From Chloroflexota bacterium (GTDB lineage Bacteria; Chloroflexota; Dehalococcoidia; Bin125): a stretch of DNA of 64,000 nt. The notes below the pieces were generated by a model. The model saw only the letters and a program-made list of their open reading frames with translations, ran no database searches and had not been told where the DNA came from. Location of the stretch: positions 186,001 through 250,000 of the forward strand of contig JAPPFB010000002.1 in assembly GCA_028875225.1 (NCBI GenBank). Direction: 5' to 3'. This document shows, one piece after another, positions 4,491 through 62,355 of this stretch (positions are counted from its first letter, which is position 1; each line of letters starts with the position of its first letter). The position numbers were made by a program, and so were the translations under genes.

Positions 4491-4522
4491 CGTCATTCCC
4501 GCGCTTGCCGCGGGAATCTCGC
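4491..4522. repeat. CGTCATTCCCGCG palindrome, family B
   Basis: ATTCCCGCG (4495-4503) pairs with CGCGGGAAT (4509-4517) around a 5-base loop (CTTGC), flanked by CGTC and CTCGC. The same 32-base unit occurs at 6366-6397 (direct), 6481-6511 (inverted) and, with a compensated base pair, 25201-25232. A truncated copy (CGTCATTCCCGC) starts at 4470. Confidence 0.8.
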
Positions 4523-4634: not shown

Positions 4635-4663
4635 GATGCCCCGCACTTGATGCGGGGCCCAGA
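4635..4663. repeat. GATGCCCCGC palindrome, family C
   Basis: GCCCCGCA-CTTGA-TGCGGGGC forms a perfect 8-bp stem, preceded by GAT and followed by CCAGAC. A diverged copy, again upstream of the paralogous small gene, lies at 61875-61903 with the same GATGCCC...GGGGCCCAGAC frame. Confidence 0.7.
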
Positions 4664-4796
4664 CAGCGATCGCCATCCCCGACGCCACTCTGACCCCATG
4701 CTCAGCCCCACCGACAACCCCAACACATCCCCACCACCCATTACAGAACACATGTACCTACAATGAACTCCTTCTCGCACACGTCAGGACCGACCA

Positions 4797-5120
4797 ATGC
4801 AAACCACGACCAACCCCTTCCACTTCCGAGCCAGGATCGACCGCCTCTGGCGACGCGCGAACAGTCACGCTCCCGCCTATCGCCGGCTCAACGCCCTCGA
4901 CGCCGTCGTCCGCGAACTCTTCGCCCCCAACGACCGCGCCCGCCGCAACCACCAGATGTACCTCGTCACCGACCCCTTCGACGTCGCCCGCCACTTCCTC
5001 CGTGACCTCCACGACCGCCCTCATCTCTGCTCTCCCCCCCCCAACGCGGGGGGAGATGCCGCAGGCAGAGGGGGGTTCCCTTGTCCTCACCGAGGGAACG
5101 CAACTCGAGGAAGACGATGA
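4797..5120 (+). CDS. Small basic protein of unknown function, copy 1; frame broken by a palindromic repeat
   Basis: As read, 107 residues. Residues 6-75 match the product of 62029-62355 at about 50 of 70 positions in a hand alignment, with the shared stretches RIDRLWR, APAYRRL, VVRELFAPN and DVARH. After residue 75 the frame enters a family A palindrome beginning with C9 (5034-5042) and then ends in an unrelated Arg-rich tail. Past the palindrome another frame encodes LVLTEGTQLEEDDDPW followed by TAA at 5128-5130, which corresponds to the acidic EDDDPL tail of copy 2. Losing one C from the C9 run would restore a 110-residue protein. So either the tract varies, the sequence has a homopolymer error, or this copy is a recent pseudogene. 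No known family is recognised; the body is strongly basic and the tail acidic. Confidence 0.6.
   Translation: MQTTTNPFHFRARIDRLWRRANSHAPAYRRLNALDAVVRELFAPNDRARRNHQMYLVTDPFDVARHFLRDLHDRPHLCSPPPNAGGDAAGRGGFPCPHRGNATRGRR
5030..5080. repeat. Family A palindrome inside the small gene
   Basis: TCTCCCCCCCCC-AACGC-GGGGGGAGA followed by TGCCGCAGGCAGAGGGGGG has the same build as the element at 2358. It lies inside the reading frame, between the conserved basic body and the acidic C-terminal tail of the small protein. The paralogue has a different palindrome at the same place. Confidence 0.75.
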
Positions 5121-5158
5121 CCCCTGGTAACGCCAATCTGCTCTCATGCTCCCGCTCG

Positions 5159-5167
5159 TTTTTTTTT
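5159..5167 (+). terminator. T9 tract downstream of copy 1 small gene
   Basis: Nine T residues follow CCCGCTCG, starting about 29 bases after the TAA of the restored frame. The paralogue has T8 in the same setting (CGCGCG then T8) 32 bases after its stop, and the sequences after both tracts are alignable (GGATC..CTCCC.GC..TGCCGTG). I see no strong stem in front, so termination is a guess, but the conservation shows the tract belongs to the duplicated unit. Confidence 0.35.
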
Positions 5168-6366: not shown

Positions 6367-6511
6367 GTCATTCCCGCGCTTGCCGCGGGAATCTCGCCTG
6401 GCGCCGCAGGGACGCATCAGACCGAGCCCCGCCGCGCTGCCCCGACCGGCATTCAGTCGGCAGGCACTCTACAGTTCGCTGCGGGATTCCCGCGACGAGC
6501 GCAGGTATGAC
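6367..6511. mobile_element. MITE-like 145-bp element with 31-bp inverted ends
   Basis: The left end is a family B palindrome (6367-6397). The reverse complement of 6481-6511 aligns to it as GTCAT.CC.GCGCT.G.CGCGGGAATC.CGC, with about five differences. The 83-base interior has no reading frame of note. It occupies the gap between the convergent mcl and P-type ATPase stops. I could not define target-site duplications. Confidence 0.5.
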
Positions 6512-61644: not shown

Positions 61645-62028
61645 CGCAACAGCCCTTCACGCAAAACCGATACCCAGCCTCAGGCTACGCGCTCCGTCTG
61701 CCGCACTCTCGAGACCGACATGCAATCAGATCGAGGTCGGCCCCGCGCAGGCGGGGCCCCATAGCGTCCGAGACCAGCTCACTACTCGACCAGAGCCACC
61801 CCCGCACGCCCATCCGCTTCGATGTCCCGCGCACGCCCATCCGCTTCGATGCCCCATCCTCCCCCACCTGGTTCGATGCCCGTGCTTGACTCGGGGCCCA
61901 GACCTCGATCACAGAGCGCAGGCAACAGCCAATCCTCGCCACAATCTCCTCAAGCCCACGACTCCGACCCCGCCAAAACTCGATATAGTCAGAACATACG
62001 TCCGCCTGAGAGCCAAGGAGCATTCCCC
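61645..62028. other. Repeat-rich upstream region of small gene copy 2
   Basis: A 384-base gap with no gene. It contains a palindrome GGCCCCGCGCAGGCGGGGCC at 61739-61758, two units of GCACGCCCATCCGCTTCGAT starting at 61804 and 61831 (27-base period), and the family C palindrome at 61875-61903. The layout mirrors the region before copy 1: repeats, palindrome, about 130 bases, then the gene. Confidence 0.55.
61875..61903. repeat. Family C palindrome, diverged copy
   Basis: GATGCCCGTGCTTGACTCGGGGCCCAGAC shares GATGCCC and GGGGCCCAGAC with the 4635-4663 element; its stem is less perfect. Both copies lie upstream of the paralogous small genes, by about 130-155 bases. Confidence 0.6.
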
Positions 62029-62355
62029 GTGCCAAACCCTTACCACCTCCGAACGAGAATCGACCGCCTCTGGCGACACGCTAACTCCGACGCCCCCGCC
62101 TACCGACGCCTCACGTCCCTCAACAAGGTCGTCCGAGAACTCTTCGCCCCCAACCAATGCGCCCGCCTCAACCACCAGCTCTACCTCGCCTCCGACCCCT
62201 ACGACGTCGCCCGCCACCTCCTCCGCGACCTCTACGACCATGCCTCCCCTGCTTGGGAAGACCCCGCGCCCGTAACCATAGAAGTCGCCCCCGCGCAGGC
62301 GGGGGCCGCGCCGCTCGTTGACGAGTCCCCCGACGAAGACGACGACCCCTTGTAA
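62029..62355 (+). CDS. Small basic protein of unknown function, copy 2, with in-frame palindrome
   Basis: A 108-residue protein, GTG start with AAGGAG (62015-62020) 8 bases upstream. Residues 3-72 match the 4797 copy at about 50 of 70 positions: RIDRLWRHANS, APAYRRL, VVRELFAPN, DPYDVARHLLRDLYD. The C-terminal part is acidic (DESPDEDDDPL). Between them, codons 87-92 (APAQAG) are written by the palindrome GCCCCCGC-GCAG-GCGGGGGC-type element at 62287-62306, with the frame kept. No known family is recognised; basic body and acidic tail suggest binding to nucleic acid or a charged surface. Confidence 0.7.
   Translation: MPNPYHLRTRIDRLWRHANSDAPAYRRLTSLNKVVRELFAPNQCARLNHQLYLASDPYDVARHLLRDLYDHASPAWEDPAPVTIEVAPAQAGAAPLVDESPDEDDDPL
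62287..62306. repeat. Palindrome inserted in frame in the small gene
   Basis: GCCCCCGCGCAGGCGGGGGC forms a 7-bp GC stem. The similar GCCCCGCGCAGGCGGGGCC lies at 61739-61758 outside genes, so the sequence is a repeat and not just codon choice. It falls at the same point of the protein as the family A repeat in copy 1. Confidence 0.7.

Follow-up and report, generated by a model that had tools for sequence, protein, structure and literature searches.

A C9 tract in a palindromic linker of a multi-copy Chloroflexota gene family: probably a recent lesion or misassembly rather than an evolved switch

Does a run of nine cytosines decide whether a small gene of this Chloroflexota genome makes its full protein? 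We analyzed the whole stretch of 64,000 nucleotides (hereafter the window), in which a first-pass annotation had placed a C9 tract inside a palindrome of a gene, here called copy 1, and had explained the loss of the C-terminus by an assembly or sequencing error, by phase variation of the gene, or by its recent decay into a pseudogene. Direct reading of the given sequence located the tract at 5034–5042 on the plus strand, within the palindrome as claimed. The frame of copy 1 (4797–5120, plus strand) runs from ATG at 4797 to TGA at 5118–5120 and comprises 107 aa with a basic, out-of-frame tail, which bears out the annotated Arg-rich end. Its last 34 residues carry a net charge of +5, and the last 12 residues of the intact copies have a median of −7 (n = 69). 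The other frame leads to LEEDDDPW, followed by TAA at 5128–5130. This tail frame, LVLTEGTQLEEDDDPW plus stop (5080–5130, plus strand), is open and, as given, out of frame with the head; the annotation had let the shifted frame run to 5130 with a tail resembling that of copy 2, and this arithmetic is right, the tail type being conserved in the family as its C-terminus. C9 is the sole C or G run of at least eight nucleotides in the 64-kb window. As about 0.5 C runs of nine or more are expected from the window's CC frequencies, the run alone is not improbable, and its position is what counts.

The surroundings of copy 1 contain further recurrent elements. A motif, CAGAACACATGTAC, lies at 4744–4757 (plus strand) and ends 39 nt 5′ of the start. 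Its counterpart upstream of other own-genome copies is CAGAACATACGTAC or a variant, with deviations in L031, L033, and L035 (alignment of 13 own copies), and it may be a promoter or operator. On the 3′ side of the stop, a terminator-like T-run (5159–5167, plus strand) is kept, with some variation, in own-genome copies (downstream alignment of 11). The same perfect-arm palindrome, ATTCCCGCGCTTGCCGCGGGAAT, occurs at 4495–4517 and 6370–6392, flanking copy 1 together with its downstream neighbor gene. A CCCCGCACTTGATGCGGGGCCCAGAC-like repeat is found at 4639–4664 and at about 61880–61903, about 125–135 nt upstream of the starts of copy 1 and copy 2, respectively, and also 5′ of several other own-genome copies.

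To place copy 1 among its relatives, its first 75 residues were used to search 61 genomes. In total, 85 copies were found in 11 genomes, all belonging to the window's own genus (Chloroflexota), with 13 copies in the window's genome (G000). No match came from the other 50 genomes, of which G003, G007, G008, and G012 belong to that genus too; the restriction to one genus is thus a statement about these 61 genomes. In a named collection, at least 41 loci were found, and among the matches listed all derive from metagenome bins designated as Dehalococcoidia or as Chloroflexi/Chloroflexota bacterium, whose names hint at a possible sponge source. The family protein is small and has three parts: a four-helix head with a length of about 70 aa, a disordered linker that varies between copies, and, in most copies, an acidic tail with EDDDPL/W at its end. 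Copy 2 (62029–62355, plus strand; 108 aa, GTG start) is an intact example and ends in the acidic tail DEDDDPL (62332–62352, plus strand, direct reading). All 85 copies were read, and 70 of them carry the strict tail pattern. L074 is intact after correction of its start, five copies have variant in-frame tails (L067, L068, L073, L079, and L101), four are truncated or damaged at contig ends (L027, L032, L037, and L096), and three have head deletions (L053, L092, and L097). Only two, copy 1 and L059, are broken in frame inside the palindrome. As a separate observation, L029 and L030 of G000 share an identical protein and near-upstream sequence and differ 3′ of the stop, a pattern that looks like a recent conversion or duplication.

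The head, which occupies 4797–5021 (plus strand) in copy 1 as delimited by the family search, is a real protein domain, since it shows a median dN/dS of 0.38, copy 2 is modeled with four helices, and tail residues are conserved across the family by sequence comparison. The dN/dS value stems from 789 pairs with 78–97% identity and dS under 1.5. The head of copy 1 itself differs from that of its G010 orthologue by dN 0.050 and dS 0.362 (dN/dS about 0.14), and from that of its G014 orthologue by dN 0.24 and dS 0.37, the latter indicating weak constraint. In the model of copy 2 (pTM 0.52), block means of pLDDT exceed 90 at residues 11–50 and fall below 50 at residues 74–102; the four-helix assignment for copy 1 rests on homology to this model. 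Searches for relatives among protein families, folds, phages, plasmids, and viruses yielded nothing convincing. Pfam and NCBIfam gave weak matches only, each for one or two of 53 members (best E-values 0.058 and 0.011, respectively), and a separate Pfam scan gave none. In PHROGs, phrog_30150 (unknown function) was matched by two of 53 members, L028 (E 2.3e-6) and L030 (E 3.4e-4). The matched region, about residues 42–113, takes in the linker, the two members have a common linker type, and 38 other members did not match upon rescanning; we regard the match as probably compositional. Single members matched phrog_3431 (Arc-like repressor; L070, E 0.032) and phrog_7850 (L044, E 0.066). A PDB sequence search reached an E-value of 1.1 at best, no fold match was obtained at E 0.001 or better, viral contigs and, at E 1, phage and plasmid records contained no relative, and an exact 28-mer of the copy 1 locus had no match in viral contigs.

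The linker of copy 1 holds a type-A palindromic repeat (5031–5075, plus strand), and the C9 tract makes up its 5′ arm together with a portion of the loop. The repeat comprises a hairpin at 5031–5056 followed by TGCCGCAGGCA and GAGGGGGG. The linker of copy 2 contains a type-C repeat instead (62284–62307, plus strand), read as EVAPAQAGAA. Palindromic repeats of five types were identified in 64 of the 81 linkers read, and the remaining 17 lack the core of all five classes. Hairpin arm scores of at least 8 were reached by 61 of 80 linkers versus one of 157 head pieces, and 42 of the 80 scored above all of 20 codon shuffles. Counts of hairpins, C/G runs, and class frames leave aside L093, L092 (head deletion, G7 run), L037, and L053; L093 is included in the paralogue-closeness test and in the count of 65 linkers given below. 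Dispersal in the genome was examined for types A, B, and C, and types D and F are known from linkers. In G000, type A gave 40 pattern matches at 37 places, type B 23 matches, and type C 45 matches with up to two mismatches, each with a control of 0. The first hairpin of type A measures 26 nt in 26 of the 40 matches and 27 nt in copy 1 and five others.

Some related observations were made along the way. In the L025 linker (G000:C17), the hexamer CTCCCT is repeated several times, an in-frame length change adjoining a type-B palindrome. L200 (G011:C4:377000-385500) contains tandem arrays at 861–1457 and 1894–2183, with units of about 152–160 bp that consist of paired type-A palindromes. In the G000 assembly, long poly-C/poly-G junk was seen at 10-N gaps (L184, L185, L186, L188, L189, L195, and L197), at contig ends (L187, L196, and L199), and at a further site (L198).

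The repeats in the linkers are read in a fixed way. Each class showed one strand and one frame, which applies to all linkers with type B (21/21), C (16/16), D (10/10), and F (5/5). Type A, which also matched on the minus strand because it is nearly symmetric, kept the same frame in 22 of 24 plus-strand matches. Overall, of the 65 linkers whose palindrome class is known, 62 preserve the frame, 59 by script and three by reading, the exceptions being copy 1, L059, and L097. L042, L051, and L066 are one substitution off the script's tail pattern, yet in frame, and L096, one of the 62, lacks a stop afterwards. Among type-A repeats of the TGTC form in four genomes, the first hairpin measures 28 nt in 15/15 family copies versus 12/102 dispersed ones, and its phase agrees with that of the family in 15/15 versus 13/102 (Fisher's test, 1e-11, copies treated as independent). 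As copies are linked by descent and conversion, such statistics overstate the case. The 15 family repeats include L092 and the frame-broken L059. Furthermore, reading of the GCCG and TGTC forms shows that their frames differ within the hairpin and agree on entry and exit, a pattern indicative of selection for the overall frame. Common descent of the inserts within a genome could explain a fixed frame without selection.

How stable such an insert is at a given locus can be followed in syntenic orthologues. Those of copy 1, in the two species represented by G010 and G014, have linkers reading SLPLPLLLPLPLGEGWGEGPP and SPPASSGGRCHGVACPALDAGTEGGSP with intact tails, and they carry other palindrome forms without C9. 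The first-pass annotation had counted a missing tail frame in relatives among the things that would refute its account, and the relatives retain the tail. Among 31 pairs that are syntenic on both flanks, each member has a known class in 24: 14 share no class, six have the same set, and four overlap. The pairs are not independent, and two of the 14 are arguable because L026 resembles a decayed type B that contains D. When heads were compared, 22 of 27 pairs showed each of the two more similar to a paralogue from its own genome than to its syntenic counterpart (three of 30 pairs were skipped, and L035/L053 of the 31 syntenic pairs was not entered), as expected from gene conversion, and copies within a genome are probably homogenized in this way. 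The other five pairs, copy 1/G010 among them, lack this two-sided pattern.

Turning to the nature of the change in copy 1, C or G runs longer than six occur in only two of the 81 linkers, copy 1 (C9) and L059 (G8), both without the tail frame, and the longest run in the 70 intact linkers measured is six. The annotation had let the C count alone decide the frame, a premise that is weakened by the dispersed repeat found to be most similar to that of copy 1. This repeat, L123 (C17:114265), is the best non-family match and intergenic by reading; it has C9 followed by GCAACGC and yet an open frame through the repeat. As L123 with nine C and then GC would keep the frame, C9 itself need not be the lesion. 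A C6-GCAACGC form is present in G006 and G011, and in G000 the loop pattern was found only at L123 and copy 1 (seven genomes compared). From an L123-like form, copy 1 can be reached by one event, a two-base loss; starting from the common form, it takes two, namely a substitution plus one more C. The change need not lie in the tract length. We give about half of our credence to a real and recent single-copy frameshift in the palindrome, with the tail loss being tolerated or the gene being on the path to a pseudogene. This reading is consistent with the conservation of the head relative to the G010 orthologue, with the tail frame that remains open, and with L059 as a second case from another species; in that case, too, syntenic relatives (L034, L077, and L085) are intact. 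However, sequence alone cannot separate a lesion from an error, in L059 as in copy 1.

An assembly or consensus error, in which case the true repeat would be in frame and copy 1 intact, is a serious possibility, if not the one we would expect. The assembly contains 10-N scaffold gaps, and poly-C/poly-G junk lies at these gaps and at contig ends. Some of this junk adjoins a dispersed palindrome, which is a sign that assembly fails at these repeats. Several family copies are located at contig ends. Exact C9 or G9 runs in the genome (n = 15) fall into junk in ten cases and into clean sequence in five, namely copy 1, L123, one run in a repeat resembling type C, 90 nt away from the end of its contig, and two more; three of these five, including copy 1, lie in palindromes. 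On the other hand, the window is free of N and of a second C or G run of at least eight, the frame of each of seven neighbor genes stays unbroken in alignment with the G010 region (2,452 of 2,462 codons), and the same assembly has exactly six C in the 5′ arm of 37 of 40 type-A matches, with a pattern that admits no fewer. Evolved phase variation via slippage of the C tract can draw on a slippage-prone tract inside the coding frame and on frame arithmetic, by which the tail is lost at five of the seven tract lengths from 6 to 12. Nevertheless, the tract is kept neither in the two syntenic orthologues nor in the intact paralogues, including the 70 intact linkers; an evolved switch is therefore very unlikely, and it was rejected as the main reading. 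Most improbable of all appears transcriptional or ribosomal slippage on C9, which would produce both tails from one sequence: a long homopolymer does lie directly 5′ of the open tail frame, but again the tract is not conserved. From the annotated set of explanations, an error or a fresh single-copy lesion fits, and the switch is unsupported. Altogether, we consider it likely that copy 1 has either suffered a recent lesion or been misassembled, without an evolved switch, and that it belongs to a multi-copy family with frame-constrained linker palindromes and largely concerted evolution.

Based on this reading, the following picture can be proposed. The family combines a folded helical head, a flexible linker, and an acidic C-terminal tail, in multiple copies within one genus. 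The linker is a tolerant site that holds dispersed palindromic repeats as frame-constrained inserts, which are presumably translated. Copies are homogenized within a genome, probably by conversion, and the inserts at one locus differ between species. In copy 1, the type-A repeat lies one base out of phase, so that a basic nonsense tail follows the head in place of the acidic one; the cause is most likely a recent small indel, either one extra C or two bases lost from a C9-GC form, or alternatively an assembly error at the repeat. Other members of the family might stand in for copy 1 in function or repair its sequence. More tentatively, the dispersed palindromes might act as interchangeable linker cassettes with one strand and frame per type, swapped by conversion, and length errors might transiently remove tails. 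Taken by itself, the C9 tract matters little. Of broader interest is a gene family whose palindromic linkers are exchangeable and apparently frame-constrained; it would show, within one genus, short palindromic repeats turning into coding sequence. Several types at one linker, 62 of 65 cases in frame, and a family-specific phase make it testable whether coding palindromes are tolerated selfish DNA or used linkers, and the family offers dozens of natural replicates for this question.

Several known systems share features with this family. Phase-variable contingency genes with poly-C tracts have a homopolymer in the coding frame, as does copy 1; however, the tract of copy 1 is not conserved and is part of a dispersed repeat. 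Single-stranded DNA-binding proteins (SSBs) comprise a folded domain, a variable P/G-rich linker, and an acidic tip before a terminal P-hydrophobic pair. The family resembles them in its fold, disordered linker, and acidic tip before such a pair, but its head is helical and did not match any known family convincingly. Of the three SSBs encoded in the genome, two terminate in GDQPF and one in DLPFE, none in EDDDPL/W; since these tips differ, the idea that the family tail is an SSB-type tip was rejected.

A literature search that covered few subscription journals revealed no coding-palindrome family in Chloroflexi and no multigene linker of this kind. Inverted repeats in coding genes are described for mitochondria of Nematomorpha (PMC6649704). 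A survey of intragenic REPs (PMC3733652) reports short palindromes that are mostly intergenic and partly inside ORFs, as well as different REPs at about the same recB site in two Xanthomonas species. The repeats described here resemble this GTAG/CGTC type in being short palindromes, some inside ORFs, with different repeats at one site. Hypothetical proteins of fewer than 120 aa were excluded from that survey, the size class into which most copies here fall. A REP/RAYT system found no support, as the Y1 (RAYT) transposase PF01797 was not found in G000 (control positive in 5 of 14), an absence that is not final because the assembly is 96% complete. Coding palindromes have also been described in Rickettsia (Rickettsia palindromic elements, RPEs) and Wolbachia (PMC10969869, PMC2996958, PMC2694212), as several dispersed families lying in frame in ORFs, in non-structured segments (PMC10969869, PMC2996958). 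The family linkers likewise contain several dispersed palindromic repeat types in frame inside ORFs: types A, B, and C are dispersed in G000, and the frame count together with the head dN/dS suggests in-frame inserts within an ORF under selection. Unlike RPEs, which measure approximately 150 bp and occur in unrelated genes, the repeats described here are about 20–50 bp long, and several types share one linker of one family.
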